Origin: Bryobacterales bacterium
GTDB taxonomy: Bacteria; Acidobacteriota; Terriglobia; Bryobacterales; Bryobacteraceae
Direction of reading: 5' to 3'
DNA: 64,000 nucleotides
NCBI GenBank assembly: GCA_020852755.1
Contig: JADZAF010000143.1
Coordinates: 1 to 64,000 of the forward strand
In this document: one piece after another, positions 34,161 through 56,207 of the stretch
Position numbering within the stretch: the stretch's first letter is position 1
Layout: the number at the start of each line of letters is the position of its first letter
Notes under the pieces: generated by a model
What the model was told of the DNA's origin: nothing
What the model saw: the letters and a program-made list of their open reading frames with translations, nothing else
Database searches by the model: none
Translations under genes and position numbers: made by a program

Positions 34161-36653
34161 TCAGCGCGCCGCGGGCGCCTCCTTGGCCCGCTGCACGTAA
34201 ACTTCGCGAGCCTCGTCGAACTGGCGGAAGACATGCTCCTTCTCCCGCGCCGACCGCCACCACGGCCAGTCTTCGCACAGGGCCCTGAGCTTGTCGATCC
34301 AGCGGACGAAATACTCGGCCGACTCGCGGTTCCGGATCTTCCGATCGCCCACGTAGACCCGGATCGCGTTGGTGGCGGCTTCCGGATACTCCGCGTCGAG
34401 GTGCGGGTGCGGGGGCCCTTCGGCATAGAGCGAGAACCAACTGCTCTCGCCGACCTTGATCTCTTCGCGGAAGGAGATGCCTTTATCCGCTCCGGCGGCG
34501 GGGATCTCCTTCAGCACCTTCCCGTTCGAATGGATCAGCACCTTGGAGAGCGGGGCGAACGACCAGACGCTGCCCTCCAGGACCACGGTTCCGCCTTCCC
34601 TGGGAAGCCGGACGGTCTCGCCCGGCAGCTTGCCGTTCACCTTGAACTGCAGCAGGGGGCCGGTGGTGAAGTAAGCCGCACCTTTGCGCAGCGCATCCAG
34701 CCAGTTCTCGACGCTCAGCTTCGATCCCGGATAGGCGTAGGTCCGGAAACACCCGATCAGCCGGCCGCGCCGCAGATCGCCGATCGAGTCCTCGCCGCCG
34801 ACCGGGGTCAGCACGATGTCGTTGTTCAGCAGATGATGCCAGACGCGCATCTGGGCCTGGCCGCAGTAGGTCCACTCGAGGCAGTCCACCAGCCCGAGGG
34901 CGGCGTCGACGGGCAGGGCCTTGGCCACTCCCAGGTCGGCGGCCAGCGGGTCGCGGTCCACCGCGAAGGGGTGCACGTACCCGGTCAGCGCGCCCTGCGC
35001 GCGCGCCTTGCGGAACATGTCGGCGTTGCTGGGGTACAGGCTGTCGATCCCGGTGCCTTCATAACCGGTAGTGACCGGCGTGATCAGATGGTCCTTGAGG
35101 CCCAGGAAGAAGACGTGGCCGTAGAGCGGCGGGCGGTACTCCTGCCCCACGTGCAGGCGCACGTCGGGGTTCCCGGCCGAGACCGGGTGCTCGCCTCCGC
35201 CCGGCACGAAATGCTGGTAGTCGAGCACGCGGTTGTCCTTGTTGGCCACCTGCTCCATGACCACCTTCATGTCCTCGGCGCGGGCGGTGAACATCATGTT
35301 CTCGAGAGTGTTGTTCAAGTCGCCGCCGTAGTTGAGGTGGGAGTGGGTGCTGCCGGAGTACCAGCCTTTTCCGGCCATGTCGACCAGGCGTCGCAGCTTC
35401 AGCTCGATCTCCGTCACGCCGCTTTCGCGGATGGTGACTTCGGCCCTGGCCGGCCAGTATTCGAAGCCCTTGACGGCCTCCACGGTCATCCTGCCCGGCG
35501 GCACTTCGACGGAAAACGAGCCCGCGGTGTGAAACGAATGGCGCTCCGAGCGCCCGATGCGCGCGAAGGCGTCCGGGGGCGCGTAGAACTTGCCGTCCGG
35601 CGCGAGCCCGTGAATCCGGGCCGGGGTAGTCGATCCGGTCTGCGCGTCGATCACGCGCACCTTGAGCGTGCCCATGGGCCGCTTCCAGCGCCGCTCGCGG
35701 ATCGGAATCAGCTTGTAGGCGCCGCCATAGGTTTCGATCAGGGCCAGCTGGGGCAGGCCTTTCTGGTTGGAGATGCAGGCGATCTGTTCGCCGTCCGGCG
35801 ACCAGCGGGGATGGAAGAGGTCGAAGCTCCGGAAGGTCATCTTGTAGGGATCGCCGCCTTCCAGGGGCAGAACATAGAGGTTGTCGAACTGGTCGGCTCC
35901 CCCGGCATACGAGGTGTAGATGATGCGCTTGCCGTCGATGGAAACGTGCGGCCGGGTGCGGAACATGGTTTGCTCGCGGTGCACCAGGCTGGCCTTGTCG
36001 ATGCCGCCGGCCTCGGCCGGCATGCGCCAGATGCCGCCGGAGCCCAGGGGCATGCCGCGGTTGGAAAGGAAGACCAACTGCTTGCCGTCGGGCGTCCAGG
36101 CCGGCTGCAGGTGCATGTCCCAGGCGCCCACGTAGAGCCGGTCGCGCGGGTAACGGTTGTCGCGCGTCACCGCCACGGGCGGTCCGGCCCAGTTCCCGTC
36201 GCGGAATTCGCGGATGAAGATGTGGAACCGACCGGCGGGGTGAGTGGAGACGTAGGCGATGCGGCTGCCGTCGGGAGAGAAGACCGGGTCGAGGAAAAGC
36301 CGCTTGGGCTCGCCGGTCAGCAGGCGGGTCTCTCCGGTGGCGACGTTCAGGATGCCGAGCTGGGTGTCCTTGCCGTTGTCATCCGCGGTGTACACGATCC
36401 ACTTGCCGTCGGGCGACCAGCTGGGCGAGGAGGCGTAGCGCCGGCCGTAAACGATCTCGGTGGCGGTTCCGGTGGCCGGGTCCACGTTCCACAGGGAACC
36501 CTGCATGGCGACCGTGATGCGCTTGCCGTCCGGCGCCCAGGCCGGCGCCCAGGGCGTGGTGCCGGGCGCCGGCGGGTAGTAGTAGTTGTACGTGTATTGC
36601 CCGTGAGCCGCGAAGGTGAGCGCGGCCGCGAGAGCCAGATTGCGTACCTTCAT
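34161..36653 (-). CDS. Secreted TolB-like propeller fused to a CehA/McbA-type metallohydrolase domain
   Basis: 830 residues from the ATG at 36653, which overlaps the aminotransferase stop by 4 nt. A Sec signal (MKVRNLALAAALTFAAHG) precedes six or so WD40-like/TolB repeats with WAPDGK, WSPDGK, FSPDGS, WTPDGK and WSPDGE motifs (about 38-300). The C-terminal half contains GWYSGSTHSHLNYGGD, a PHP-type His-x-His metal motif, and YVHPFAVDRDPL, as in CehA/McbA-family metal-dependent hydrolases. The combination suggests a periplasmic phosphoesterase or amidohydrolase with a propeller for substrate or protein binding. The substrate is unknown. Confidence 0.8.
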   Translation of the reverse strand: MKVRNLALAAALTFAAHGQYTYNYYYPPAPGTTPWAPAWAPDGKRITVAMQGSLWNVDPATGTATEIVYGRRYASSPSWSPDGKWIVYTADDNGKDTQLGILNVATGETRLLTGEPKRLFLDPVFSPDGSRIAYVSTHPAGRFHIFIREFRDGNWAGPPVAVTRDNRYPRDRLYVGAWDMHLQPAWTPDGKQLVFLSNRGMPLGSGGIWRMPAEAGGIDKASLVHREQTMFRTRPHVSIDGKRIIYTSYAGGADQFDNLYVLPLEGGDPYKMTFRSFDLFHPRWSPDGEQIACISNQKGLPQLALIETYGGAYKLIPIRERRWKRPMGTLKVRVIDAQTGSTTPARIHGLAPDGKFYAPPDAFARIGRSERHSFHTAGSFSVEVPPGRMTVEAVKGFEYWPARAEVTIRESGVTEIELKLRRLVDMAGKGWYSGSTHSHLNYGGDLNNTLENMMFTARAEDMKVVMEQVANKDNRVLDYQHFVPGGGEHPVSAGNPDVRLHVGQEYRPPLYGHVFFLGLKDHLITPVTTGYEGTGIDSLYPSNADMFRKARAQGALTGYVHPFAVDRDPLAADLGVAKALPVDAALGLVDCLEWTYCGQAQMRVWHHLLNNDIVLTPVGGEDSIGDLRRGRLIGCFRTYAYPGSKLSVENWLDALRKGAAYFTTGPLLQFKVNGKLPGETVRLPREGGTVVLEGSVWSFAPLSKVLIHSNGKVLKEIPAAGADKGISFREEIKVGESSWFSLYAEGPPHPHLDAEYPEAATNAIRVYVGDRKIRNRESAEYFVRWIDKLRALCEDWPWWRSAREKEHVFRQFDEAREVYVQRAKEAPAAR

Positions 36654-37867
36654 GACAGCGCGTTCAACAGGCGGTCGACATCCTCCTGGCTGTTGTAGAC
36701 CGACGGCGAGATGCGCATCTTGTTGCCGAAGCGCATGGCCACGTGCACGCCGGCCTGCTTGAGCCTGGCGATGGCGGCCTGCGGATCCCTGGTGGCGAAG
36801 GCCAGGATGGGGCTCTCGTTGCCCGGCGGCGTGATGCTGGGGTAGCCGATGCGCGGCATCTCCTTCTGGAGCCTGCCGGTGAGGGCGCGGCTGTGAGCGC
36901 GGATGTTGTCGACGCCAAGTTGCTTGATGTACTTCAGGCTCTCCAGCGCGCAGATGATTCCGGAACAGGAAGCGTAGCTGACCTCGTAGCGGCCCGGGCC
37001 GGTTACCGGGCTGAAGCCGATGTCCTCCTGCTTGGGATCGGGCGTGGTGGTCCAGGGGGCGTAGTTGAAGCGCACGCCCCCGGAATGCTGGGTGGGCTTG
37101 ACCACGGTTCCCTGCAGATCCTCGCGAATGTAAGCGAAGCCGAATCCCTTGAGGCCCATCAGCCACTTGTAGGTGGAGGCGGCGGCCAGGTCGATGCCCA
37201 TGGCCTTGACGTCAATGGGTATGGCGCCCACGCACTGGATGATGTCGGCGTAGAGCAGGGCGCCGTGGGCGTGGGCCAGCTGGCTGAGCGCCTTGACGTC
37301 GCACAGGTAGCCGTTCACGTTGGAGACCAGGGCGACGGCGATCAACTTCGTCTTTTTGTCCACGACGCGCTCGAAATCGCGCAGGTCGAGCTGCCAGTCG
37401 CGGTGCTTGACGATGCGGACGTCGAGGCCGGCCTTCTGGCGCATTTTGTAGTTGTAGATGGAGGCCGAGTAGTGCAGGTCGTTGGTGACGACGTTGCCGC
37501 CCTCGGCCTGTATGTTCATCCCGTTCAGCAGGTTGCTTTCGGCTTCGACGGTGCTGCGCAGGAAAGCAATCTCGGATGGCCTGGCGTTGATCAACTCGGC
37601 GAAGAGGGCCTTGGACTGCTGGCGCGCCTCCGACCAGTAGGGCCACCAGGGCTCGCCTACTTCGTTGGTGTTCCACTCGATGAAGCGGTGCAGGGCCGCA
37701 GCCGACTGAACGCTCAGCGGGTGGCAGGACGCGTTGTCGAAATACGCGGCTGTGCGGGTGCGGGGGAAATCCGCCCGCACGGAATTGATGTCGAACGAAC
37801 CGGCGGCAGCGCCACGGGGCATCGCGGCGGCCGCGCCGGCCAGAAGATCGCGTCGTCTGATCTGCAT
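36650..37867 (-). CDS. Tat-exported class V PLP-dependent aminotransferase-like enzyme
   Basis: 405 residues. The N-terminus MQIRRRDLLAGAAAAMPRGAAA looks like a twin-arginine signal, unusual for a PLP enzyme. The fold is the class V/isopenicillin N epimerase-cysteine desulfurase group: the cofactor His region is NDLHYSA, the Asp region LLYADIIQCVGA and the Schiff-base Lys is in AASTYKWLMGLKGFGFAY. Members catalyse transamination, epimerisation, desulfuration or beta-elimination. It starts the minus-strand group that continues with the TolB/CehA fusion, YceI and IorAB. A GGAG Shine-Dalgarno sequence lies 7 nt before the ATG. Confidence 0.85.
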   Translation of the reverse strand: MQIRRRDLLAGAAAAMPRGAAAGSFDINSVRADFPRTRTAAYFDNASCHPLSVQSAAALHRFIEWNTNEVGEPWWPYWSEARQQSKALFAELINARPSEIAFLRSTVEAESNLLNGMNIQAEGGNVVTNDLHYSASIYNYKMRQKAGLDVRIVKHRDWQLDLRDFERVVDKKTKLIAVALVSNVNGYLCDVKALSQLAHAHGALLYADIIQCVGAIPIDVKAMGIDLAAASTYKWLMGLKGFGFAYIREDLQGTVVKPTQHSGGVRFNYAPWTTTPDPKQEDIGFSPVTGPGRYEVSYASCSGIICALESLKYIKQLGVDNIRAHSRALTGRLQKEMPRIGYPSITPPGNESPILAFATRDPQAAIARLKQAGVHVAMRFGNKMRISPSVYNSQEDVDRLLNALS

Positions 37868-37945: not shown

Positions 37946-40900
37946 CTAGAACACAAACCGGGCGAGAAACTCGGTTTGTCTGCCGAAATTGGCCTGGCCG
38001 GAGATCCGGCCGAAGTTCGCCACCCCCAAGGTCGTGCTCGGACTCGAGAAGATCGGGTGATTCATCAGGTTGTAGGAGGAGGCGCGGAATTCCATCCGCA
38101 GGCGCTCGACGATCTGGAACCACTTCGAGAGGGTCAGGTTGATATTGTTCATGCCGGGGCCGCGCACCCCGGCCACTCGCGGGCTGAGGTTGCCGAAGGT
38201 GAAATCGGCCGGCTGTGAGAAGGCGCTGGTGTTGAAGTAGCGGTCCAGGCGCGAGACGATGCTGCCCGAGATGCCTTCCATGGGATCGCCGGCGGCGTTC
38301 GGCCGGGTTCCTCCCGCTCCGGCGGTGGCGCGGGCGAGGCTGAAGGCCAGGGGAAAGCCCGACTGGAAGGTGCTGAAGGTGGACATCTGCCAGCCGCCGA
38401 TCAACAGGTCCAGGCCCCGCGAGGCGTTGCCGAAGAAGTGCCGGTTGCGCCCGAAGGGCAGGTCCCAGGCGGCGGTGATGGTGAGCCGCTGGGGCACGTC
38501 GTACTGGCTGACGGCGCGCTCCCTCGTCCGGTCGTAGGCGTTCTGAGCGGTGGTGAGATCCCCGATGTTCTTGGAAACCGTGTAAGCGACCAGCGCGGTG
38601 ACCCCGTGGGCCATGCGCTTCTGGATCTGGAACTGCATGGAATGGTAGACCGTGTTGCCGAAGGCGGGGAACTGCCGCACCACGCCCGTGAATTGGGGGT
38701 AGGGCCGCAACAGCTGGGCCTGCTGCACCGTGCGTCCGGCCAGCGACCCGCTGGTGATGACGCCGTAGAAGGGGTTCTGGACGGTGGCCAGCAGGGCCGA
38801 GCCCATGGAGAGGTACTGGGGGTGGAGCTGGTTGACCTGCTCGGTCGGAACCCCGGCGGCGTCCAGGCCTCCGAAAACCCGGATGGCGCGGCTGCCGACG
38901 TAGGAGATCTCGGCCACGGTCTGGGAAGGCAGGGCCCGCTGGACATTGAACTGCCAGGTGTGGAAGGTGGGGGTGCGGTCGCCGGGCTCCACGTAGGCCA
39001 CGCTCTGGCCGACCAGGGTCAGGAGACCCTGGCTGTTGCCGATGGGGGGCAGCAGCCCGTCCGGGAACGGGTTGCGAAGCAGGTCCTTGGGGGTAATGCC
39101 GTCGGGGGAAAACACCATGGGGGTGGTGTTGCTGTAGCCGGTGGGCTGCACGGTGCCCAGCACGGGGATGTAGCTCAGGGCATATCCGCCGCGGAGGACG
39201 GTCTTCGGATTCAGGCTGTAGGCGAAGCCGATGCGGGGCGCCACGTTATTGCGGTCCGGCTCGTAGAGGCCGCGCGGGTTTCCGTCCACGGCGGCGTAGA
39301 GCAGGCCGCCGCGGAGATTGAGTCCGGGGACCTGCAGCGGGCTGGGGGTGTTGTAGGCGAAACCGCGGGTGGTGCGGTCGAACCGTTCGGTGCGCGGGCT
39401 CTCGTACTCCCAGCGCACGCCCAGGTTCAGCGTCAGTTTCGGCGTCACCCGGTAGTCGTCCTGAAAATAGAGCCCGTAGTAGAAGTTCTGCACGGAAAGG
39501 CTGGTGTTATAGCCGATGCTGCCCGAGCCGTAGCCCACCAGCAGGGAGGCCATCGAGAAGCCTCCGGCGGGGGTATCGGCGCGGGGCCCGCCGGTGGAGA
39601 GCGGACCGAAGCTGAAGCTGCCGGACGGCGCGGCGTTGCGGAAGAAGTGCCCGCGGATGAGGCGGCCCTCGCCGCCGGTCTTGAACAGGTGCTTGCCGCG
39701 CTGCATGGTGACGCTGGATTGCAGCGACCAGGTCTGCCCCGGCTCTTCGTAGAACCAGTTGCCCGTGGCCAGCGCCTGGAACCCCGTCGCACTGATATTG
39801 GGGAAGGCGCGGGATTGCACCGCGTTGTTGAAGGACGAGGGGAACCCCAGCGAGGTCAGATCGAGCCCGTCGGACCAGGGGCGGAAGCGCTCCAGGCCCC
39901 AGGCGTAGCCGAGACGGGCGTCCAGCGTGGTGCGGGGGCTGATCGAATAGGTGTCGTTCAGCGCGACTCCCAGGTGAGGCCGGCTGTTGAAGTGCCGCCC
40001 GGGGGTGGCGATGCCGTCGAACTGGTGGGGGTAGACCAGCAGGGCGGTGCCGTAGTTGAGGCGCGCGAAGGTCTGGTGCCGCGGGGTCAGCATGTGGTCG
40101 ACCTTGGCCACCAGCATGTTGTAATCCCGGGGCCATTTCGAAGAGTACGAGAAGTTCTGCACCCAGGGGGTGGCGGCGTTCGAGGGCGGGACGTTGGGCT
40201 CGGGATAGTAGCTCATGATCTTTTGCGCCACCGGGTCCTGCAAGCTGGCCGGAACAATGTTACCCGGGAAAGGATCCCGCACGGGAACGTCGTTCACGGT
40301 GTGCACCGAAAAGGGATTGTAGATGGCGTCGCGCACTTCCGAGAAGTCGCCGCCGCGCATCTTGGCGGTGGGCACGCTGTTGGTGTTATTCAGAGCGTTG
40401 CCTTCCCGGGAGCCCTCGAAATTGACGTAAAAGAAGGTGCGGTTGCGGCCGTCATAGAGGCGGGGCAGGAAGACCGGGCCGCCCAGGCTGCCGCCGAAGG
40501 TGTTGGCCCCGAAGGCGGCCAGTTTCTGACCGCGGCCGCGCGAAAAGAACAGGTTGGCGTCCAGCACGGCGTTGCGGAAGTGGTCGTAGGCGGAGCCGTG
40601 CAGATCATTGGGTCCCGACTTGATCACCACGTTCATGAAACTGCCGCCCGAGCGCCCGTATTCGGCCGGCAGGATGCCGGTCTGGAGCTTGAACTCGGCC
40701 ACCGACTCGGTGGAGGGAACCCAGGGGCTGAGAGCCGCGCCGCGGTCGAGGTCCACCGTATTGGTGACGCCGTCCACGGACACATCGCTGGAGGCCATGG
40801 GGGCGCCGTTGGAGCCGAACAGCATGTTGCTGGCGGTGTCGTTCGGGCGGATGTCCTCGCCGTAGCGGGTGGTGACCACCCCGGTGGTGAGGCTGTACAT

Positions 40901-41350
40901 GAGCAGGCTGCTGTGTCCCTTGAGGGGCAGGCTGTCGATGATCTGGCGCTGGACCACGGCGCCCAGCGAGGAGGACTCGGGCTGGACCAGCGAGACGTCC
41001 GCGAAAACGGAAATGGACTCGGCGGCGGTTCCCAGCGCGAGCTCCACGTCCAGGCGGGCGTTCTGGTTCAAGCTGAGCGCGATCTTCTCCATCACGCCGG
41101 CCTTGAAGCCGGCCGCCGTTACGGTCAGCGAGTAGGTTCCGGGCGGCACGAAGGAGAACAGATAGTGGCCGGTCTCATCGGCCGCGGTCTTTCTCTCGAG
41201 GCCCGTTTCCACGTTGCGCAACACGACCGCGGCGTTGGGAATCGCGGATTTCGAAGGGTCGGTGATGGTGCCCTGGATCGTGGCGCGGAACTCCTGCGCC
41301 CAGGCACCGCAAACAAGAGCAAACAAGACGACCAAGCGTATGGCTGACAT
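37946..41350 (-). CDS. TonB-dependent receptor, Oar-like, with carboxypeptidase-regulatory-like domain (paralog A)
   Basis: 1134 residues from the ATG at 41350, which has GGAGG 5 nt upstream. A Sec signal (MSAIRLVVLFALVCGAWAQ) precedes an N-terminal carboxypeptidase-regulatory-like/Ig fold domain (IQGTITDPSKSAIPNAAVVLRNVETG, ending SLTVTAAGFK). A plug-like region follows, then an outer-membrane beta-barrel ending in an aromatic residue (FLARFVF). The two head-to-head paralogs share roughly 70% identity at the N-terminus by eye. These receptors import large ligands such as oligosaccharides across the outer membrane with TonB-ExbBD energy. The ligand is unknown. Confidence 0.92.
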   Translation of the reverse strand: MSAIRLVVLFALVCGAWAQEFRATIQGTITDPSKSAIPNAAVVLRNVETGLERKTAADETGHYLFSFVPPGTYSLTVTAAGFKAGVMEKIALSLNQNARLDVELALGTAAESISVFADVSLVQPESSSLGAVVQRQIIDSLPLKGHSSLLMYSLTTGVVTTRYGEDIRPNDTASNMLFGSNGAPMASSDVSVDGVTNTVDLDRGAALSPWVPSTESVAEFKLQTGILPAEYGRSGGSFMNVVIKSGPNDLHGSAYDHFRNAVLDANLFFSRGRGQKLAAFGANTFGGSLGGPVFLPRLYDGRNRTFFYVNFEGSREGNALNNTNSVPTAKMRGGDFSEVRDAIYNPFSVHTVNDVPVRDPFPGNIVPASLQDPVAQKIMSYYPEPNVPPSNAATPWVQNFSYSSKWPRDYNMLVAKVDHMLTPRHQTFARLNYGTALLVYPHQFDGIATPGRHFNSRPHLGVALNDTYSISPRTTLDARLGYAWGLERFRPWSDGLDLTSLGFPSSFNNAVQSRAFPNISATGFQALATGNWFYEEPGQTWSLQSSVTMQRGKHLFKTGGEGRLIRGHFFRNAAPSGSFSFGPLSTGGPRADTPAGGFSMASLLVGYGSGSIGYNTSLSVQNFYYGLYFQDDYRVTPKLTLNLGVRWEYESPRTERFDRTTRGFAYNTPSPLQVPGLNLRGGLLYAAVDGNPRGLYEPDRNNVAPRIGFAYSLNPKTVLRGGYALSYIPVLGTVQPTGYSNTTPMVFSPDGITPKDLLRNPFPDGLLPPIGNSQGLLTLVGQSVAYVEPGDRTPTFHTWQFNVQRALPSQTVAEISYVGSRAIRVFGGLDAAGVPTEQVNQLHPQYLSMGSALLATVQNPFYGVITSGSLAGRTVQQAQLLRPYPQFTGVVRQFPAFGNTVYHSMQFQIQKRMAHGVTALVAYTVSKNIGDLTTAQNAYDRTRERAVSQYDVPQRLTITAAWDLPFGRNRHFFGNASRGLDLLIGGWQMSTFSTFQSGFPLAFSLARATAGAGGTRPNAAGDPMEGISGSIVSRLDRYFNTSAFSQPADFTFGNLSPRVAGVRGPGMNNINLTLSKWFQIVERLRMEFRASSYNLMNHPIFSSPSTTLGVANFGRISGQANFGRQTEFLARFVF

Positions 41351-42173: not shown

Positions 42174-45100
42174 ATGCCTCTCTTACGCCTCTCAATCGCG
42201 CTCGTGTTTTTTGCCGCGGCGTTCGCGCAGGAGTTTCGCGCCACGCTGCAAGGCACCGTCATCGATCCGTCCAAAGCCACCATCCCCAGCGCGGAGGTGG
42301 TCCTGCGCAATGTGGATACGGGAATTGAACGCAGGACCAAGACCGACGAAGCGGGATACTACCTGTTCTCCTTCGTGCCGCCGGGCAATTACTCGCTGAC
42401 GGTGTCGGCGGCGGGTTTCCGGACGCGAATTCAGGAGCAGATTTCGCTGAGCTTGAACCAGAACGCGCGCCAGGATGTGGAACTGGCGCTGGGCGCGGCC
42501 GCGGAGACGATCTCGGTGGTGGCCGACGTCTCGATCGTGCAGCCGGAATCGTCCTCGCTGGGCTCGGTGGTCAACCAGCAGATCGTGGACAACCTGCCCT
42601 TCAAGGGCCACGCCAGCATGACCATGTACAACCTGACCACCGGGGTGGTGGCCAACCGCTATGCCGAGGACACCAGGCCCAACGACCTGTTCACCAACGT
42701 GCTGTTCGCCGCCAACGGGGCGCCGGACGCCTCCAGCGACGTTTCGGTGGACGGTGTGCCCAACACCATCGATCTGAACCGCAGCGCCAACGTCTCGTGG
42801 TGGGTTCCGGCCATGGAATCGGTGGCCGAGTTCAAGCTGCAGATGGGGACGCTACCGGCCGAATACGGACGCTCCGCGGGCAGCATCATGAACGTGGTGA
42901 TCAAGTCCGGCACCAACACCCTGCACGGCGCCGCTTACGACTACTTCCGCAACGCGGCGCTGGATGCCAACCTGTTCTTCTCGCGGGGGCAGAACCAGAA
43001 GCTTGCCTCGTTCGGCGTCAACACCTTCGGCGGCAGCCTGGGCGGCCCCATCTACCTGCCGAAGATCTACGACGGCCGCAGCCGCAGTTTCTTCTACGTG
43101 AACTTCGAGGGATCGAGGGAGGGCAACGCGATCAACTACACCTACAGCGTGCCCACGGCGAAGATGCGGAAAGGCGATTTCTCGGAGGTATCCAATCCGA
43201 TCTACGATCCTTTCTCGGTACATACCGTCGGCTCCGCGCCCATCCGGGACCCTTACCCCGGCAACATCATTCCGGTTTCGGCGCAGGATCCGGTGGCGCA
43301 GAAGATCATGACTTACTATCCGGAAGTGAACCGCCCTTCGTCGAACCCGGCCACTCCCTGGGTGCAGAACAGCGGCTTCTCGGGTAAGTGGCCGCGCAAC
43401 TATAACATGCTGGTGGTGAAGCTGGACCATCAACTCACTCCCCGGCACCAGACGTTCATGCGGATGAATTACGGCACGGCGAGACTGGTCTATCCCTACT
43501 ACTGGGAGGGCATCGCGACGGCCGGCCGGGACATCAACACGCGGCCGCACTTCGGGGTGGCGCTGAACGAGACGTTCTCGATCAGTTCCCGGACCACCTG
43601 GGACATGCGCCTGGGGTACACGCGGGGCACGGAACAGTTCCGGCCGTGGTCGGACGGCTTCGACCTGGGGCTGCTGGGTTTCCCCTCTTCCTATCAGAGC
43701 CTGGTGCAGTACGCCTCGTTCCCCGCCATCAGCGTGAGCGGCTTCCAGAGCCTGGCCGGCAGCCGCTGGTATGAGCAGCCGGGCGACACCTGGTCCATCC
43801 AGTCCAGCGTATCGATGCAGCGGGGAAGACACCTGTTCAAGACGGGCGGCGACGGCCGGCTGGTGCGGGGGAACTGGTTCACCGCCACCAACACGTCGGG
43901 GACCTTCAGCTTCGCCCAGGCGCAAACCGGCGGCCCGCGAGCCGACACCCCGCTTACCAGTTCGGGTTTCTCGATGGCCTCGCTCATGGCGGGCTACGGA
44001 TCGGGCAGCATCACTTACAACAGCGGCGTCTCGGTGCGGGACCTGTTCTACGCGCTTTACTTTCAGGACGACTACCGGGTGACGCCCAAGCTGACGCTGA
44101 ACCTGGGCGTGCGCTGGGAGTATCCGGCCCCGCGCACGGAACGCTATGACCGCACGGTGCGCGGCTTCGACCGCGGCGCCACCAACCCGCTGCAAGCGCC
44201 GGGAATGAACCTGCGCGGCGGCGTGCTCTATGCCGGGGTCAACGGGCAGCCGCGCGGCTTGTACGATCCGGACCGCAACAATATCGCCCCGCGCCTCGGG
44301 TTCGCTTACAGCCTCAGCAGCAAGACCGTTCTGCGCGGCGGATATTCGTTGAGCTACATCCCGGTGCTGGGCGCGATCCAGCCGCTGGGCTACAGCGTCA
44401 CCACGCCGGTGGTGAGCTCCACCGACGGCATCACTCCCAAGGACCTGCTGCGGAACCCGTTCCCGAGCGGCCTGCTTCCGCTGACCGGCAATTCGCTGGG
44501 GCTGCTCACCATGGTGGGGCAGAACGTAACCTTCGTGGAGCCCGGCGACAGGACCCCCACGTTCCATAACTGGCAGTTCAACATCCAGAGGGCACTGCCT
44601 TCGCAGACGCTGTTCGAGGCGGCTTACGTGGGGAGCCGGGCGATCCGGATCTTCGGCGGCCTGGACGCGGCCACCGGATTTTCCGAACAGCTCAACCAGT
44701 TCGATCCCCAGTACCTGTCCATGGGAACCGCGCTGCTGCAAACCGTCCCGAACCCCTTGTACGGCGTCATCACGACGGGTTCGCTGAGCGGCAGAACGGT
44801 GGCGCAGTCGCAGTTGCTGCGCCCCTATCCGCAGTTCGCGGCGGTCACGCGGCGCGAGCCGGCCCTGGGCAACAGCGTGTACCACTCCATGCAGCTGCGG
44901 GTGGAAAAGCGGATGGTGCACGGGGTGACGGCGCTGGTCTCTTACACCCTGGCCAAGAACATCGGCGACACCACCACCGCGCAGAACGCCTATGACCGGA
45001 CCAAGGAGCGGGCGGTTACCTCCTTCGACGTTCCGCAGCGGCTCACCGTCTCGGCGACCTGGGAGCTGCCTTTCGGCCAGAGGCGGCGCTTCCTCTCCAA

Positions 45101-46918: not shown

Positions 46919-46952
46919 GAGGGGTGGGCGCGAAGGCCGCGCTTCACCCCTC
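46919..46952. terminator. Bidirectional hairpin between convergent genes
   Basis: GAGGGGTG (46919-46926) pairs with CACCCCTC (46945-46952), and an inner CGCG/CGCG pairing can extend the stem. It lies between the dehydratase and the GHL6-like gene, which converge, and covers the stop codon of the latter. There is no clear T-tract. Confidence 0.5.
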
Positions 46953-49022
46953 GAAAACCACCATCTGGTGTCCCTTGACTTCCGGCACGGTGACGCGGGC
47001 GTAGCCGCCGGAGTACTCGAAGCGCAGATCCTGTTTCCGGGGCGCGAGGTAGACGCGGGCGGGGCGGCGGGTGAGCCGCGCGGCCACCGCGACGTTGGCC
47101 AGTGGAATCACGTCTTCGACGATGTCCAGGTCCGGGCTGCGCCGTTCGGGGACGTAGTGCAGCAGGTGCAGGATGCGGCGGCTGCCCTGGGCGGTCAAGG
47201 TCACCTGCGCGGTGGAGGGCAGTTCTCCGCGGACCAGCGGGTCGGGGATCAGACGGCGGATGGTGTTGCCCACCAGTTGCCGGTAGACGGCATAGCCGTT
47301 GCGCGCGTAGGCCCGGAAGATGGGCACGGCGAAGTAGACGATCCTGCCGCGCTGGGCCGCGGCGGCGTAATCCGAGGGCCGGGCGTAGGGCGTCTGCTCG
47401 ACGTGGAAGTGGCGGTAGTCTTTGTCGAAGTAGCCCTCCCAGACACGGGCGAGGAGGGTGGTCCCGGGCTGGACCTTGACGGCCGAGCCGGTCTCATACA
47501 TCTCGTGCACCATATCGGGAATGCCCTCGCGGGCCGGTTCCAGCGCCTCGATGTATTGCGACTCGTGCTTCCACGGGCCTTCGTAATCGAGTCCCATGCC
47601 GGGCAGGGCGAAGGACCTGGCTTCCTCGTCGAGGCCCGACTCGTGGCTCAGCACCAGGGCGCCGCCGGCTTTCAGGAACGCGGCCAGCTTATCCCGCAGC
47701 ACGGCATCGAGGCGCTGGTTGTCGGCCAGGATCAGCAGGGGGTAGCGGGAGAAGTCCGACTCCCGGTCGATCAGGTCGAACTGGTGGTGCAGCCGGGTCA
47801 GCATGGAAGTCGCGCCGGCGGCGGATTCAGTGGTGCGCGGCGCGCCGGGGTTGAGGAGCAGCGCCATCTCGGTGACCGCGGCGGCGCCTTCGCACCAGGG
47901 CTCCTTTTCCCTGACGGAGCGGTAGGTGTTCCCGATGCGCTCGTAGGTGCGGGGGTTCAGGCGGCCGCCCGGATGCAGGTGGTCGCCGACCGCGCACTTG
48001 GTGGCCTGGGCCAGCATGCTGAAGCACTCGTAGTCGAGCGCGGCCTGGTTGCGCACGGTTCCGAAGTCGCCCCAGCTGCGGTGGAAGGCGCCGGTCATGC
48101 CCTGGGCCTCGAGCCCCAGGTTACGCAGGTAGCGGGAGGCCATCTGGAAATGGCTGTAACCCCAGGAACCGCCGGGCAGCGACTCGATCTCGAACTGGGT
48201 GTAGTCAGGGGTAACCCGCCGCAGGAATTGCGGGTCCTGCCACAGGCGCGCGGGACCGTTGATGTAGATGCTGGCCTTGGGCTTGCGCTTCCTGACGGTG
48301 GCGGCGAAGCGGTGCATGGAGCGCTCCATGACCATCAGGGCGTGCTTCTGCCGGTCCTCCCGGCGGGCCGATTCCAGGCCGAGCTTCTCGCGCTCCAGCA
48401 TGCAGGAGGGACCCAGGCAGCCTCCGGCCGGGTAGCCGAAGTTGTCGTAGAAGAGGCCGTCGGCTTCGTAAGTGCGGAGCACCTCGTCGGCCTGCTCGAG
48501 CACGTAGTCGAGGTAGGGCGTGTTGATGCACACGCGGCCGAGCTGGGGCAGGAGCGGACCGGCGGCGCCGCGCAGGCCCTGCGGTTTCCCCTCTTCGTCG
48601 AAGGCGCGCCAATCGGCGTGCTCGCGCCACACCCGCTGGTCGTACATGGTGCTGATGTAGACCGGCACCCGGATGCCCTGGCGGTGGCAGGCTTCGATCA
48701 TAGCGCCCACCAGGTCGATCTTGAGATTGGGATGGCGCACCCCCACGCGGGTGGGATAGTAGGACATGCCGTGGTGGCACTTGGCGAAGATCGTGATGGA
48801 GTTGACCTCGGCTTCCTTGAGGACCCGCGCGAACTCGGAAGCATCGAAATCCTCGCCTACGCCGGTGATGGCGGGCGAGGTGTGGAAGTCGAGATGGATA
48901 TGGCGGAAGGTGACGACTCCCGGAGGGAGCCCGGCTCCGGGGGAGAAGCGGGCGAACCCGAGGAAGCCCAGGCCCGCGGCCGCATCGCGCAGCATCTCGC
49001 GGCGGGAAATATCGTTCGGCAT
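46944..49022 (-). CDS. Tat-exported GHL6-like predicted glycoside hydrolase
   Basis: 692 residues from the ATG at 49022, which has AGGAGG 5 nt upstream. ISRREMLRDAAAGLGFLGFA is a twin-arginine signal. The N-terminal barrel opens with RHIHLDFHTS, then SITIFAKCHHGMSYYPT and VPVYISTMYDQRV, as in the hypothetical glycosyl hydrolase 6 (GHL6) group. A beta-galactosidase trimerisation/glutamine-amidotransferase-like domain follows (LLILADNQRLDAVLRDKLAAFLKAGG). The substrate is unknown. It is 14 nt after the GH20-like gene, so the two form an operon. Confidence 0.78.
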   Translation of the reverse strand: MPNDISRREMLRDAAAGLGFLGFARFSPGAGLPPGVVTFRHIHLDFHTSPAITGVGEDFDASEFARVLKEAEVNSITIFAKCHHGMSYYPTRVGVRHPNLKIDLVGAMIEACHRQGIRVPVYISTMYDQRVWREHADWRAFDEEGKPQGLRGAAGPLLPQLGRVCINTPYLDYVLEQADEVLRTYEADGLFYDNFGYPAGGCLGPSCMLEREKLGLESARREDRQKHALMVMERSMHRFAATVRKRKPKASIYINGPARLWQDPQFLRRVTPDYTQFEIESLPGGSWGYSHFQMASRYLRNLGLEAQGMTGAFHRSWGDFGTVRNQAALDYECFSMLAQATKCAVGDHLHPGGRLNPRTYERIGNTYRSVREKEPWCEGAAAVTEMALLLNPGAPRTTESAAGATSMLTRLHHQFDLIDRESDFSRYPLLILADNQRLDAVLRDKLAAFLKAGGALVLSHESGLDEEARSFALPGMGLDYEGPWKHESQYIEALEPAREGIPDMVHEMYETGSAVKVQPGTTLLARVWEGYFDKDYRHFHVEQTPYARPSDYAAAAQRGRIVYFAVPIFRAYARNGYAVYRQLVGNTIRRLIPDPLVRGELPSTAQVTLTAQGSRRILHLLHYVPERRSPDLDIVEDVIPLANVAVAARLTRRPARVYLAPRKQDLRFEYSGGYARVTVPEVKGHQMVVFEG

Positions 49023-49036: not shown

Positions 49037-51307
49037 TCAATGGGCGGCCTTCAGGCCGAGTTTGCGGCGGTATTCCGGAATCTCCCGCTCCAGCACGCCG
49101 CGCAATTGCGCGATCTTCTCCTGGAGCACGTCGGGAGTGTAGAAATAGTCCTGTTCCCACTCGTAGCCGAGACGGGAATCGCGCAGCTGGGTCTCGCGGG
49201 CGGCCCGGGTTCGGGCTACCTCATCTTTCAGGATGGCGGTCATGCGGTTCAGGATGCGCGCGCTTTCGGCCGGAGAGGCGGCCCCGGCGAGTTTCAGGCG
49301 CAGGTCCTCGAATTCCAGAATGGCCTGGGCGCTGCGCATCATACGCTGCAGCTGCTCGGCCAGGAGGACCTCGCGGAAGGCGCCCGGGCGCTTTCCGGCC
49401 GGAGCCCGGAGCGCGGCCGCGCGGTAGCTTCGCAGGCCCTGCTCCATTTCGCCCGCGGCCAGCAGCAGGTACTTGTTGAACACAGGAAGACTGAACGGGG
49501 CGGCGTAGCGGGCGGCGGCGTTAGTGCGGTTGGTGAAATCCGGATTGAGGATGACGCGGTCGGGCGCGTACGGCCAGTAGGGGCTCACCCGGACGCCGCC
49601 CGCCTGAATCCCGGGGACGGCCCAGGAGTGGTCCACCACAATCGCGCGCGGTTTGGGCTTCTGGAAGAAGAACGGCGAGCCGATCGAATTGGTGGTGCCC
49701 ATGTTGGGGCCGGTGTCCGGCACCAGGCGGATCGCCTGGGTGAAGCGGTCCCAGGCGGCGAGAACCAGGTCTTCCGAGCCGGGGCCGAATTCGCGCCGGG
49801 CGATCGCGCGAAGCAGCTCGTCCAGAGGCGGAGCGCCGGTCCAGCTATACCAGGCGCGCAGCTCGGCCACGAAGTTTGGCTTGAACCCGTAGCTCCAGCT
49901 TTCCAGCGTGCCGTCGACGGCGTATTTCTCCAGCGCCTGGTAGCGGGCGTGCCACTGCCGGGGGAAGGGCAGGTAGGGGAAGGTGCCGAACTGCCAGCTC
50001 GCGAATGTGTCGGCCTTGGCGTAGACCTTGAGGCCGCGCCGGCGGGCCTGATCGATCTGGGCGGCGGCCACTTCGGCGGGGCCGATTTCGTTGATGGCGT
50101 AGTCCTTCAGGTACCCCTGCTCGCCGTCGCGCTGGAAGCCCTTGCCGTTCTCCCAGGTGATGAAGGCCGTGACAGAGGACGGGTAGCGGTCAATGACGTA
50201 GCGCTTCAGGTCGGCGGCGCCGGGCCGGAAATCGATGTTGTAGTCCCAGGCGAGCACTTCGATGGCCGGGTTGATCGCGTGCATCTCCGCGGCCGCCACG
50301 GCGACCCCGCGGGTCCAGTGATCGATCCATTTTCGAATGTCCTCGCGGTTCCAGGAAGGCCAGCGCTCGTAGTCGAAGCCTTCGATGAGCAGCATGTAGC
50401 CGCGGATTTCCGGAAATTCCGTCACGATCCTGCGGACCAGCTTCCGCAACCCCGCTTCGTTTTCGGCGGTTCCGTCCAGGTGGTACATGATGGGGCAATA
50501 GACGTCCAGGCCGTAGCGTGCGGCCCGGCGGATCAGGTCGTGCATGCGGGCGGGGTCCTGGCGCCGCATCATGTAGTTGTACGGCCAGCCGGCCATGGCG
50601 CCGTCGGGATTCGCGTAGACCGACGCATAGATGGCGTCGAAACCATAGTGGGCGACGAGGGAGAGGTAGGGGTCGGGCCACTCCATCCAGCCCAGGCCGG
50701 AAAGGGTCATGCGGGCGTTGAACAGGCTGTGCCGCGGGGCGTCCAGGTCTTTGGGGAGGAAGGGCGCCTCGCGCAGATTCATGCGCGCTTCGAGGTTGTA
50801 CAAGCCGTACATGACGCCGCGCTCATCGAACCCGCAAACGGCGATCCGTTCGGGCTCCGCGATGAGGTGGTAGTCCTTGCGGCTCTTGAGAGCAGCGCCG
50901 CAGCCGGGGATGTGCTCGCGGACGCCGGCCGCAATCACTTTTTGCGCGCCGCGCCAGTTTTCGAGCGAGGCCCTGGCCTCCATGGCCACCCGGACGCGCA
51001 TGGCGCGTTCCAGGTACTCCTTGAAATCCGCGGCGGCCTGGCGCAGCACCGGCCCCGCCTGCTCGGGTATCCACAAGGTCCAGCCGTCTTCGGAGAGCGC
51101 CATTTCGCTGTTCGAGGGTTTTGCGGCCGGGTTGCGGCGCAGCGGCTCCTTCCAATTCCCGATGGCGGCGCGGAAATCGTGCGGCTGCTCGACGGGCAGA
51201 GCGGGCAGGGCGCGCGCGGCAAACTCCGCGGCGGTAACGGGGGCTTCGGCGCCGAGGCCGGCACGGAGACAAACGCAGAGAATCGGGAGCAGCCGGAAGG
51301 CATGCAT
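49037..51307 (-). CDS. Secreted GH20/GH67-like predicted glycosidase
   Basis: 756 residues with a Sec signal (MHAFRLLPILCVCLRAGLGAEA). The first ~190 residues look like a GH20b/alpha-glucuronidase-type N-terminal domain (WIPEQAGPVLRQAAADFKEYL, then CGFDERGVMYGLYNLEARM). A TIM barrel follows, including ARMTLSGLGWMEWPDPYLSLVAHYGFDAIY, YCPIMYHLDG and VLAWDYNIDF. Residues that would be catalytic are not certain. A family outside the named GHs is possible. It precedes the GHL6-like gene by 14 nt, which points to joint action on one glycan. Confidence 0.72.
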   Translation of the reverse strand: MHAFRLLPILCVCLRAGLGAEAPVTAAEFAARALPALPVEQPHDFRAAIGNWKEPLRRNPAAKPSNSEMALSEDGWTLWIPEQAGPVLRQAAADFKEYLERAMRVRVAMEARASLENWRGAQKVIAAGVREHIPGCGAALKSRKDYHLIAEPERIAVCGFDERGVMYGLYNLEARMNLREAPFLPKDLDAPRHSLFNARMTLSGLGWMEWPDPYLSLVAHYGFDAIYASVYANPDGAMAGWPYNYMMRRQDPARMHDLIRRAARYGLDVYCPIMYHLDGTAENEAGLRKLVRRIVTEFPEIRGYMLLIEGFDYERWPSWNREDIRKWIDHWTRGVAVAAAEMHAINPAIEVLAWDYNIDFRPGAADLKRYVIDRYPSSVTAFITWENGKGFQRDGEQGYLKDYAINEIGPAEVAAAQIDQARRRGLKVYAKADTFASWQFGTFPYLPFPRQWHARYQALEKYAVDGTLESWSYGFKPNFVAELRAWYSWTGAPPLDELLRAIARREFGPGSEDLVLAAWDRFTQAIRLVPDTGPNMGTTNSIGSPFFFQKPKPRAIVVDHSWAVPGIQAGGVRVSPYWPYAPDRVILNPDFTNRTNAAARYAAPFSLPVFNKYLLLAAGEMEQGLRSYRAAALRAPAGKRPGAFREVLLAEQLQRMMRSAQAILEFEDLRLKLAGAASPAESARILNRMTAILKDEVARTRAARETQLRDSRLGYEWEQDYFYTPDVLQEKIAQLRGVLEREIPEYRRKLGLKAAH

Positions 51308-52642: not shown

Positions 52643-54040
52643 TCAGTTGTAGAACTCCCGCCGGTGCTGTTCGGCGTAGGCTTGCATCCGCGCGGCGATC
52701 TCGGGAAAGCGGCGGATCACGTTGACGGTCTCGAACGGGTCGGCCTCCATGTCGAACAGGGACAGTTCGATGCGCTCCTGCCGGTACTTTCCGGCCATGC
52801 CATCCCTGCCCGGCGCCGCCACCACCCGGTAGGCATGCGGCAGGTGCAGCTTCCAGCGGCCGTCCGCGCTGATCACGCCCTCGAAGTTCGCGCCTGTGGA
52901 GAAGGGATAGTAGTCGTGCGGGTTGACCGCGCCCGGCCTGGCGGAAATCAGGTCCCATACGTTCTTTCCGTCGATCGGATTCTTCGGCAAGGGCGCGCCC
53001 GCCAGGTGGGCCAGGGTGGGCAGCAGGTCGACGGTGGAGAAGGTCCGCCTGGAGAAGGAGCCGGCGGGGATGCGGCCGGGATAGCGCATGATGCAGGGGC
53101 TGCGCGTGCCGCCGTCGAAGCCGGTGCCCTTGGCCTCCCGGTAGATGGTTTTGCCGGCGTGGTTGCCATAGGAAGTCCAGGGTCCGTTATCGGAGGTGAA
53201 GATGACGAGGGTGTTGTCTTCCAGGCCCGAAGATTTCAGCGTCTTCAGGATCTCGCCCACGGACCAGTCGATCTCCATGATGACGTCCCCGTAGAGACCG
53301 GTCCCGGACTTTCCTTTGAACCTTTGGCTGCAGAACAGCGGCACGTGCGGCATGGAGTGCGGCAGGTACAGCAGGAACGGGCCGGCCTTGCTGCGGCGGA
53401 TGAAGTCCACGGCGTGCTCGGTATACCAGGTGGTCAGCATGGGCTGGTGTTCCCGGGTGACGCGCTCGATTTTGATGCGCCCCTGATCCCAGAACTGGAG
53501 CGGATACTGGCGGTAGTTCCGCGGGTGCTCCGGGTGGAACTCCCACATGTCGTTGGAGTACATGAGCCCGCAGGACTCGTCGAATCCGCGTGCCGGGGGA
53601 CGCGTATCGGGCTGATCGCCGATGTGCCATTTTCCGAAGACAGCAGTGCGATAGCCGGCGGCCTTGAGGGTCTGGCCCATGGTGGCGAACGCGGGCTCGA
53701 GGCCCCGGGCCCGGGGACCGTGCGCGCCGAACACCCGGGTTCTGCCCGGATAGCACCCGCTGAGCAGCGCGGAGCGAGAGGCGGAACAGACCGCCTGCGG
53801 CACATAGAAGTTGGTGAACGAGCAGCCCCCGGAGGCCAGGCGGGCGACGTTGGGCGTGGGATAGTCCGGCTTGCCGAAAGGACGGAAATCGGACCAGCCG
53901 GCGTCGTCGAGAAAGATGATGACGAAATTAGGCCGGCGGGGCGCGCCTTTGGCGAGGCCGGCCAGCCCCAGGCCGGCTGCCGCCAGGCCGGCGCGTAGAA
54001 ACTCCCTGCGGTCCGGAGGATTGTGCGTCATGAGCGGCAT
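52643..54040 (-). CDS. Tat-exported sulfatase
   Basis: 465 residues from the ATG at 54040; an ATG three codons later is an alternative. PDRREFLRAGLAAAGLGLAG is a Tat signal. The alkaline-phosphatase-fold motifs are FVIIFLDDAGWSD (metal ligands) and CSASR (85-89), in which C85 becomes formylglycine; Ala replaces the usual Pro in CxPxR. GKWHIGDQP and FTSDNGPW are further sulfatase hallmarks. It removes sulfate from glycans or other esters. No maturase gene (FGE or anSME) is in the window. The gene is divergent from the Gfo/Idh/MocA gene across 70 bp. Confidence 0.93.
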   Translation of the reverse strand: MPLMTHNPPDRREFLRAGLAAAGLGLAGLAKGAPRRPNFVIIFLDDAGWSDFRPFGKPDYPTPNVARLASGGCSFTNFYVPQAVCSASRSALLSGCYPGRTRVFGAHGPRARGLEPAFATMGQTLKAAGYRTAVFGKWHIGDQPDTRPPARGFDESCGLMYSNDMWEFHPEHPRNYRQYPLQFWDQGRIKIERVTREHQPMLTTWYTEHAVDFIRRSKAGPFLLYLPHSMPHVPLFCSQRFKGKSGTGLYGDVIMEIDWSVGEILKTLKSSGLEDNTLVIFTSDNGPWTSYGNHAGKTIYREAKGTGFDGGTRSPCIMRYPGRIPAGSFSRRTFSTVDLLPTLAHLAGAPLPKNPIDGKNVWDLISARPGAVNPHDYYPFSTGANFEGVISADGRWKLHLPHAYRVVAAPGRDGMAGKYRQERIELSLFDMEADPFETVNVIRRFPEIAARMQAYAEQHRREFYN

Positions 54041-54052: not shown

Positions 54053-54082
54053 TTGAAGACCGAGGGAGAGGCAGAGTACGAT
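54053..54082 (+). promoter_or_regulatory. Candidate promoter of the Gfo/Idh/MocA gene
   Basis: TTGAAG (54053-54058) and TACGAT (54077-54082) are separated by 18 bp, giving a leader of about 22 nt before the ATG at 54111. The Shine-Dalgarno AGGAGG lies within that leader. Confidence 0.35.
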
Positions 54083-54110
54083 CAGGAGCGTAGATCAGGA
54101 GGTCCGCAAC

Positions 54111-55340
54111 ATGGCCAAGAGCACCCGCCGTTCCTTTCTGGGAAGCGCGGCAGCCGCTTCCGCGCTGTCCCCGCGCGTTTCCGGCCAGGTGATTCCCGGA
54201 TTCGACCAGACGCGCACGGAGGTGGACAAGACCCGGACCTGGCAGCCGTTCAGCGACCGCAGAATCCGCATGGGGCTGGTCGGCTACGGCGTCTGCAGGT
54301 TTGCGGCGGAATTCGAATTCCAGAACCACCCGAATGTCGAGGTGGCGGGGGTGAGCGACCTGTTCCCGGACCGCTGCGCGGCGCTGGCCAAGCGGGTGAA
54401 GTGCTCGAACACCTACCCGTCGCTCGAGGAGATGGTGAAAGACGACCGCATCGAGGCGATCTTCGTCGCCACCGACGCGCCTTCGCACGCCAGGCACTGC
54501 ATTCTGGCGCTCGATCACGGCAAGCACGTCTGCACGGCCGTCCCGGCTTTTCGCGGCGACATCGAAGATGCGGAGCGGCTGCTGGAGTGCGTAAAGAAGA
54601 ATCGCGGGCTGGTCTACGCGATGCTGGAGACCTCCGTTTTCCATGACGACCTTTACGCCATGGAGAAGCTGTACGCCGCGAACGTTTTTGGAGAAGTGGT
54701 GTACTGCGAGGGCGAGTACTGCCATCCGCACACTTTGGGCGCGCCGGCGCTGGACTCCTACAAAGACTGGCGCAAGAAAGGGGCGCCCATGTGGTATCCG
54801 ACGCATGCGACGGCGTACTACGTGGGCGTGACGCACGACAGCCTGGTGGAGGTGAGCTGTCTGGGAACCGCGCCGTTCGACAAGTCGAGGCGGCGTCCCA
54901 ACAGTATCGGCAATATCTTCAACTCGGAGGTGGGCATCTTCCGGACCCGCAGGGGCGGGTTGTGCCGGATCATCATCTGCGGCTCGCAGGGCGAGTACCT
55001 GGAAGCCGGGCGGCTGCGCGGCGAGTATGCGGGGTACGACTGGCATAACGGGCGGTCGGAGGGCTTCGTGGGAGACGCGGAGGGCAAGCGGAGGCTGGCG
55101 GAGGCCGCAGGGAGGGGGCTGCGGACGAAGAAGTACGCGCTGCCGCCGGGTGTTTCACCGGGCGGGCACGGCGGCTCGCACGGCTACCTGGGAGACGATT
55201 TCGTGGACGCCATCCTGCGGAAGCGGAAACCGGCGGTGGACGTGATTGACGCGTTGAACATGACGGTTCCCGGCTACTACGCCCATCTTTCCGCCATGAA
55301 GGGCGGGGAGACGATGAAGATCCCCCAGTATTCGTTGTAG
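54111..55340 (+). CDS. Tat-exported Gfo/Idh/MocA-family oxidoreductase
   Basis: 409 residues, with AGGAGG 9 nt before the ATG. STRRSFLGSAAAASALSPRVSG is a Tat signal. The Rossmann motif is MGLVGYGVCRFAAEFEFQ and the typical EMVKDDRIEAIFVATDAPSHARHC, DHGKHVCTAVPA block follows; the Lys of the usual EKP is replaced (TAVPA). Periplasmic members such as Zymomonas glucose-fructose oxidoreductase keep a tightly bound NADP. I infer a similar periplasmic sugar oxidation or epimerisation. It is 96 nt before the GalB-like gene in the same direction. Confidence 0.88.
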   Translation: MAKSTRRSFLGSAAAASALSPRVSGQVIPGFDQTRTEVDKTRTWQPFSDRRIRMGLVGYGVCRFAAEFEFQNHPNVEVAGVSDLFPDRCAALAKRVKCSNTYPSLEEMVKDDRIEAIFVATDAPSHARHCILALDHGKHVCTAVPAFRGDIEDAERLLECVKKNRGLVYAMLETSVFHDDLYAMEKLYAANVFGEVVYCEGEYCHPHTLGAPALDSYKDWRKKGAPMWYPTHATAYYVGVTHDSLVEVSCLGTAPFDKSRRRPNSIGNIFNSEVGIFRTRRGGLCRIIICGSQGEYLEAGRLRGEYAGYDWHNGRSEGFVGDAEGKRRLAEAAGRGLRTKKYALPPGVSPGGHGGSHGYLGDDFVDAILRKRKPAVDVIDALNMTVPGYYAHLSAMKGGETMKIPQYSL

Positions 55341-55436
55341 GAAAGCCGGCGTTGATCGCGGCCCGTCGTGCAGGGCCTGCCCGGCTTGACAGGGAGTTCG
55401 CGGGCGTGCAGAGATGTGCGGCGGGAGGAAAACAGA

Positions 55437-56207
55437 ATGCAACGACGCGAGTTTGTCGCCGGCGCCTGGCTGGCCGCGGGCATTCCGGCAGGCGGGCTTC
55501 GCATGCAGGCCGCGGCTGCCGCCCCGGCGCCCGCAAGGGTGCTGGCGGTCAGCGCGCACCCCGCGGATTTCTGTTCGCGGGCCGGGGGAACCCTCATCAA
55601 GCACGTGCGCGCGGGCGCCAGGGCCAAGGTGATCTGGCTGACCCAGGGCGAGTCGGACGAGAGCGCCTTCCTGATCCGCCAGCGGCCCGGCATCTCCGTG
55701 GACGAAGTCCGGCGCATCCGCGAGAAGGAGGCCTTCGCCTGCGCGGAAGTGATCGGGGCGGAGGGCAGGATGTTCGGGTTCGGCGACGGTCCGCTGCGGA
55801 TGACGCCGGAGCGCATGGAGTTGCTGGCGCGGGAGATCGCCGATTTCAAACCCAGCCTGATTCTCACGCACTGGAAGGACGAACTCACTTATCCGACCCA
55901 CTGGCGGACCGCGGTGAGCGTGATTGAAGCGGCCCAGATGGCGCGCGCCTCCTGGGACATACGCTTTTTCGAACCGAACCTGGGAACGGCCTCGCGGGTC
56001 GGATTCGTTCCGGACCATTACGTGGATATCGGGGAAGTGTTCGAACGCAAGATCGAGGCGCTGAAGACGCTGGCCGCGCAGCCGGCCCTGGTTCCCAATT
56101 ACACGGTCTGCAACCGCTGGCGGGGACTGGAGTGCGGGCGGCAGTATGCCGAGGCGTTCGTGCGGTGGGCCCCCAAGCCGCCGGTACACGACCTGCTGGG
56201 CGGATAG
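55437..56207 (+). CDS. Tat-exported PIG-L superfamily protein, GalB-like hydratase
   Basis: 256 residues from the ATG at 55437, with GGAGG upstream. QRREFVAGAWLAAGIPAGG is a Tat signal. The PIG-L metal motif reads AHPADFCSRAGG instead of the deacetylase HPDD, so the Asp used as general base by MshB-type deacetylases is missing while the metal-ligand Asp is kept. The second motif is LTHWKDELTYPTHWR. The pattern of HxADF, RAGG and GDGPLR resembles 4-oxalomesaconate hydratase GalB of gallate degradation. I therefore infer hydratase or related activity more than deacetylation; this is moderate confidence. Confidence 0.7.
   Translation: MQRREFVAGAWLAAGIPAGGLRMQAAAAAPAPARVLAVSAHPADFCSRAGGTLIKHVRAGARAKVIWLTQGESDESAFLIRQRPGISVDEVRRIREKEAFACAEVIGAEGRMFGFGDGPLRMTPERMELLAREIADFKPSLILTHWKDELTYPTHWRTAVSVIEAAQMARASWDIRFFEPNLGTASRVGFVPDHYVDIGEVFERKIEALKTLAAQPALVPNYTVCNRWRGLECGRQYAEAFVRWAPKPPVHDLLGG

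Follow-up and report, generated by a model that had tools for sequence, protein, structure and literature searches.

Twin-arginine signals on six enzymes of a Bryobacterales genome point to probable separate periplasmic modules

The window analysed here comprises bases 1-64000 of the 66,215-base contig C143, which belongs to a Bryobacterales genome of 7.44 Mb in 398 contigs. Between positions 34161 and 56207, it carries six enzymes with signals for the twin-arginine translocation (Tat) system: a class-V pyridoxal phosphate (PLP) enzyme, an enolase-superfamily enzyme of the MR_MLE family, a GHL6-domain protein, a sulfatase, a Gfo/Idh/MocA-fold protein, and a GalB-like enzyme. As the best explanation of this arrangement, we find it probable that the six enzymes belong to four separate periplasmic modules in a Tat-rich genome, in which Tat signals have been put on a large part of the carbohydrate and amino-acid enzyme families. 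Pfam domain names agree with the families given in an earlier note on this DNA. The genes of the four proposed modules, A to D, are as follows.

37946..41350, minus strand: module A, TonB-type outer-membrane receptor with CarboxypepD_reg and OMP_b-brl_4 domains; first operon gene; Sec-type start MSAIRLVVLFALVCGAWA
36650..37867, minus strand: module A, class-V PLP enzyme (aminotransferase / cysteine-desulfurase fold), here called the aminotransferase; Tat signal MQIRRRDLLAGAAAAMPRGAAA
34161..36653, minus strand: module A, exported protein with PD40 repeats; a 4-base overlap joins its start to the stop of the aminotransferase gene
42174..45581, plus strand: module B, a second receptor of TonB type, belonging to the family of that in module A
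45594..46910, plus strand: module B, MR_MLE enzyme (enolase superfamily, sugar-acid dehydratase-like); Tat signal MTVSRRTLLHSALIAGGAAEPAFA; 12 bases after the receptor
49037..51307, minus strand: module C, exported glycosidase-like protein that matches GH20 domain 2 weakly; Sec-type start without a Tat motif
46944..49022, minus strand: module C, GHL6-domain protein; Tat signal MPNDISRREMLRDAAAGLGFLGFA; 14 bases after the glycosidase-like gene
52643..54040, minus strand: module D, sulfatase (PF00884); Tat signal NPPDRREFLRAGLAAAGLGLAGLAKGA
54111..55340, plus strand: module D, Gfo/Idh/MocA-fold protein; Tat signal MAKSTRRSFLGSAAAASALSPRVSG; divergent from the sulfatase
55437..56207, plus strand: module D, GalB-like enzyme with PIG-L fold; Tat signal MQRREFVAGAWLAAGIPAGGLR; downstream of the Gfo/Idh gene

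All six motifs sit at the starts of well-supported coding frames with high GC content at third codon positions (GC3), and each was found as the earlier note had described it. The aminotransferase starts with MQIRRRDLLAG (36650-37867, minus strand), the MR_MLE enzyme with MTVSRRTLLHS (45594-46910, plus strand), the GHL6 protein with MPNDISRREMLRD (ATG at 49022, minus strand), and the GalB-like enzyme with MQRREFVAG (ATG at 55437, plus strand). The motif is DRREFLRAG in the sulfatase (52643-54031/54040, minus strand) and STRRSFLGS in the Gfo/Idh protein (54111-55340, plus strand). Signals were detected with a home-made, TATFIND-like scanner that looks for RR within the first ~35 residues and, behind it, a moderately hydrophobic stretch without charged residues, the strict rule being 13 uncharged residues after RR. 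Four of the six signals pass at 13 residues and five at 11, while the aminotransferase passes only once the rule is set to 9. The Tat profile TIGR01409 proved too strict as a detector: with 150 of its 416 candidates scored, it listed none of the window signals and none on the window contig.

The twin-arginine pair is conserved to different depths in the different families. Among aminotransferase homologues ranging from 73% down to 38% identity, the RR motif is present in all 29 (23 by scanner and 6 by eye), and the remainder of the signal varies while the pair stays. Homologues of the Gfo/Idh protein pass the scanner in 17 of 22 cases, with the motif recognised by eye in three more, and in both families RR persists to ~35-40% identity. 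Tagging extends through the whole MR_MLE clade above 60% identity; several homologues at 30-35% start with MKI straight at the domain, without an extension. A GalB-like paralogue at 70% identity has an RR start recognised by eye (MTTMQRRHFLRTALLV), and relatives at 44-45% are untagged. For the GHL6 protein, conservation of the signal rests only on the alignments of several homologues, which extend to the RR pair or beyond it towards the N-terminus.

The genome background was taken from two samples of the own genome with 667 called genes in total. In these samples, 69 RR-type signals were counted, compared to 5 with RK, 6 with KR, none with KK, and 5 with QR in the same pattern. The hit rate per start was 1.75% at gene starts and 0.25% at internal starts, a 7-fold difference. 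The genome contains one TatC (E 4e-58), so the Tat translocase is present. From these signals, we predict with considerable confidence that all six enzymes are exported via Tat, and their putative action in the periplasm is well supported by sequence.

A cytoplasmic location is usually assumed for enzymes of the enolase-superfamily, DHDPS, PLP, and Gfo/Idh types. In the genome studied here, Tat-like signals are carried by 69 of the 667 sampled genes (10.3%), a higher share than in two relatives (16 of 279; Fisher p 0.02); pMOL28 as a control offered 19 genes and was too small. Six tagged genes among 11 have a probability of 4e-4 at a fixed place and of ~0.6 somewhere in a genome of 6000 genes. 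Such a cluster is thus expected somewhere by chance, and its density alone is no evidence for a pathway. By family, the Tat sample is dominated by MR_MLE (14 of 66), Gfo/Idh (8 of 66), sulfatases (4), and DHDPS aldolases (3). Genome-wide, there are 112 MR_MLE_C matches, some of them from split genes, and 125 Gfo/Idh matches. In a like-for-like comparison, the 129 first-look MR_MLE candidates were the highest number among 150 genomes of the order, with at most 77 elsewhere.

Approximately 20-23 of the 30 top MR_MLE loci are tagged (~70%), as are 10-13 of 30 Gfo/Idh loci and ~5 of 17 DHDPS loci. One genome holds tagged and untagged members side by side. A tree calculated for 57 MR_MLE proteins shows at least 5 changes of tag state; its own-genome rows were labelled laxly (26 of 30 tagged, compared to 20-23), and it was used only for these changes. 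On contig C218, an untagged MR_MLE gene lies near an untagged DHDPS gene, the pattern expected of a cytosolic pathway. Overall, it appears that hundreds of enzymes that are normally internal are directed to the periplasm in this genome.

In module A, the aminotransferase retains its PLP lysine (STYKW), and the cysteine at the desulfurase position is absent. The C-terminal part of the PD40 protein, we assume, resembles CehA-type metallohydrolases. The order receptor, aminotransferase, and PD40 protein also occurs in genome G023 at 63-73% identity; the last two genes are present at a contig end in G063, and contig C30 of the own genome carries a copy of the aminotransferase-PD40 pair at 48-49% identity. 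The window aminotransferase shares its PLP fold and a Tat signal with PvdN of Pseudomonas, a periplasmic class-V PLP enzyme of pyoverdine maturation and an experimentally proven Tat substrate (PMC6085387). The match to the NCBIfam model NF051467 is weak (score 43 against a cut-off of 650), and, unlike PvdN, the window enzyme is encoded in a TonB-type receptor operon together with a PD40 protein.

Module B consists of a receptor gene followed by a Tat-tagged MR_MLE gene, and this pairing recurs. With 65 of the 138 candidate TonB-type receptors of the genome scored, six MR_MLE genes proved to be immediately preceded by a receptor gene on their own strand, where ~0.6 such pairs were expected (Poisson p 4e-5). 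The tandems lie on contigs C143, C148, C360, C70, C189, and C73, and all six enzymes are tagged. The window MR_MLE enzyme is 74% identical to its counterpart in a Bryobacterales metagenome-assembled genome (Acidobacteriota), the nearest named relative found. It retains three acidic metal ligands, with Glu for the first Asp, as well as the Asp-His pair and the final Glu. These residues and the fold are shared with sugar-acid dehydratases acting on gluconate/galactonate and arabinonate, whose NCBIfam models are the closest (highest score 158 bits, cut-off 750). In contrast to these dehydratases, the window enzyme bears an added Tat signal, and the second Lys of the KxK motif is Arg. The terms 'mandelate racemase' and 'Tat signal' were found together in no open-access paper among those searched, with incomplete coverage, and searches for literature on Tat in Acidobacteria, Bryobacterales, or Solibacter gave nothing relevant.

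In module C, the GHL6 protein, named as GHL6-like in the earlier note and by Pfam alike, can be placed more precisely. It shows full-length homology to the solved alpha-L-fucosidase 6tvk (E 1.5e-121, residues 83-737). The preceding glycosidase-like protein (49037-51307, minus strand) has 756 amino acids, gives a hint of an O-GlcNAcase, and represents a glycosidase-like family without assignment; its single-sequence fold, with a mean pLDDT of 37, was too poor to be informative.

Module D combines three Tat-tagged proteins. The sulfatase carries the formylglycine motif CSASR, which fits the type I pattern C-x-(A/P)-S-R. The Gfo/Idh protein matches its Rossmann-fold family (PF01408, E 1e-14), but AVP stands in place of the catalytic EKP in all 22 aligned rows, those of the window protein and of 21 homologues. 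Of 30 other Gfo/Idh proteins in the genome, 28 keep EKP. The subfamily is spread over the order and nearly always Tat-tagged, and it keeps AVP and YPTH in all aligned homologues; this strict conservation indicates that the protein has a function. Glucose-fructose oxidoreductase (GFOR) of Zymomonas, to which the earlier note had likened the protein, is periplasmic, with its signal cleaved off (PMC4628093). The two share the Gfo/Idh/MocA fold, but the window protein matches GFOR weakly (E 0.0014), and the analogy fails because the catalytic EKP lysine is lost. Given this loss and the weak match, the window protein is, on its residues, unlikely to be an ordinary dehydrogenase.

Periplasmic 3-keto-sugar chemistry is a further precedent (PMC9007349), known as 3-keto-glycoside degradation by Caulobacter LacABC with DUF1080 and by the Bacteroides BT2157-type hydrolase. 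Among the Tat-tagged proteins sampled from the genome are a 3-keto-disaccharide hydrolase and members of the Gfo/Idh family; those tagged Gfo/Idh members that were examined keep EKP. No DUF1080 gene was seen in the region, however, and the Gfo/Idh protein of the window lacks the catalytic lysine.

The GalB-like protein has the PIG-L fold and the motif AHPADF, compared to AHSADF in GalB and AHPDD in deacetylases; GExxES is kept, and the best solved homologue is 5cgz (E 1.8e-19). The fold and the AHxADF motif suggest a likeness to GalB (4-oxalomesaconate hydratase), from which the window protein differs in its export signal, and no aromatic-acid pathway genes were seen in the region. A Tat-tagged sulfatase, a Tat-tagged MR_MLE protein, and the RR-tagged GalB-like paralogue at 70% identity stand in a row on contig C114 of the own genome (C114:27158-30527, L256:7158-10527); the Pfam match of this MR_MLE protein is split into two stretches. 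Orthologues of the Gfo/Idh protein at 50% identity occur in G039, G057, and G026, three genomes from another family, and are followed by sulfatase genes on the same strand. In G039 (L254) and G057 (L253), over ~2.4-15 kb, the orthologue heads a sulfatase run, with a thiamine pyrophosphate (TPP) enzyme, a sodium:solute symporter, a xylose-isomerase-like TIM barrel, and a DUF5060 protein beside it. We take the TPP enzyme to be IolD-like and the TIM barrel to be IolE-like, which together look like inositol catabolism. This neighbourhood hints at inositol-type or sulfated substrates.

We postulate a general module in which a TonB-type receptor is followed by a Tat enzyme. A compound would enter through the outer membrane via the receptor, and a folded, cofactor-loaded enzyme would process it in the periplasm. 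In the window, the receptor with the PLP enzyme and the PD40 protein, and the receptor with the MR_MLE enzyme, may be examples of this design. Modules C and D would most simply serve the trimming of sulfated, fucosylated glycans, and we consider the chances even that the sulfatase and fucosidase units do trim glycans. Observed directly are the signals with their conservation, the gene order and its recurrence, TatC, and the catalytic residues kept or lost; co-function inside the modules, actual export, and the substrates are what we infer here.

The earlier note had joined the six enzymes into a single periplasmic sugar-acid degradation pathway fed by the receptors, the sulfatase, and glycosidases. 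Such a pathway would account for six Tat-tagged enzymes all lying inside 20 kb, and in the MR_MLE enzyme, metal and Asp-His residues of the dehydratase type are retained, with sugar-acid dehydratases as its closest models, far below their cut-offs. However, the genes are arranged in at least four transcription units, encoded on both strands, which are conserved apart in the loci examined, and in none of these loci were all four found together. Neither a lactonase nor an aldolase was seen by Pfam among the genes of the region, the Gfo/Idh protein would have to act without its catalytic lysine, and a cluster of this density is expected somewhere in the genome. The aminotransferase, the fucosidase, the sulfatase, and the GalB-like protein are not consecutive steps. 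A single pathway is therefore very improbable, and we regard separate modules as likely. What stands of the proposed feeding is that the aminotransferase and the MR_MLE enzyme lie in receptor operons and that the Gfo/Idh protein is coupled to sulfatases. At the other extreme, Tat signals might simply be common and the neighbourhood without joint meaning, with unrelated modules and perhaps some non-catalytic members, such as the AVP-bearing Gfo/Idh protein acting as a binding protein. The 10% background, the chance of ~0.6, and the loss of EKP are consistent with this. Yet the recurrent sets (receptor-MR_MLE, receptor-aminotransferase-PD40, Gfo/Idh-sulfatase, and sulfatase-MR_MLE-GalB-like) are unlikely to be random, and the residues kept in every aligned Gfo/Idh homologue indicate function, which leaves this explanation rather unlikely.

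Some of the signals could also be Sec signals or membrane anchors with a chance RR, so that the proteins would be exported unfolded or remain unreleased. The silence of TIGR01409 and two short hydrophobic (h-) regions would fit, and Tat prediction is imperfect: in P. aeruginosa, with 72 TATFIND candidates, 33 of 44 selected signals were validated (PMC6085387). We nonetheless give this alternative little credence, as the RR pair persists in signals that otherwise vary, and RK, KR, and KK counterparts are rare. Several observations do weigh against Tat-dependent modules as we describe them. The h-region of the aminotransferase is short, with 10 uncharged residues before an Arg, and is rescued by the conservation of RR across its homologues; that of the GHL6 protein has 11 residues and fails the 13-residue rule. 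The scanner is home-made, and by the internal-start control, ~14% of its hits (about one in seven) arise by chance. Furthermore, the association in module D rests on two independent lineages, and in G039 and G057, the genes of inositol type around the Gfo/Idh orthologue suggest another substrate class.

Beyond the separate modules, the whole genome might possess a Tat-exported parallel enzyme set for non-phosphorylating sugar-acid breakdown. Sugars would be oxidised, dehydrated, and cleaved in the periplasm, with only small products imported, and the TonB-type receptor with the Tat-tagged MR_MLE enzyme would form the entry module. Candidate members are EKP-bearing Gfo/Idh dehydrogenases, an SMP-30 lactonase, dozens of MR_MLE and UxuA dehydratases, and DHDPS-type aldolases. 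We consider this scheme speculative and improbable.

The conserved export signals on many such enzymes in the lineage imply that pathway reconstructions blind to compartment may be wrong. The repeated pair of receptor and Tat enzyme represents a compact design for periplasmic processing, and the 112 MR_MLE matches, most of those sampled having export signals, form a large pool of enzyme functions to explore. Single precedents are known in PvdN (PMC6085387), periplasmic 3-keto-sugar chemistry (PMC9007349), and GFOR (PMC4628093); unusual here are the scale and the pairing of receptor and Tat-tagged MR_MLE enzyme.

Near module A, the window contains a further gene with a Tat signal, which the earlier note had also reported (as IorB).

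30796..32868, minus strand: molybdenum hydroxylase large subunit (IorB/Xdh type); Tat signal MKPDDLSRRDFLAGPG

Its motif is SRRDFLAG (ATG at 32868), and large subunits of molybdenum hydroxylases are a common kind of Tat substrate. Between modules C and D, an SLT-like protein (51394-52626, plus strand) opens with RRR and continues with a long hydrophobic stretch, which looks like a membrane anchor and not like a Tat signal. At lower coordinates in the window, 8509-17191 on the minus strand encodes a squalene/phytoene synthase, a squalene-hopene cyclase, and a radical SAM DUF3463 protein; these genes probably form a cluster for hopanoid biosynthesis.

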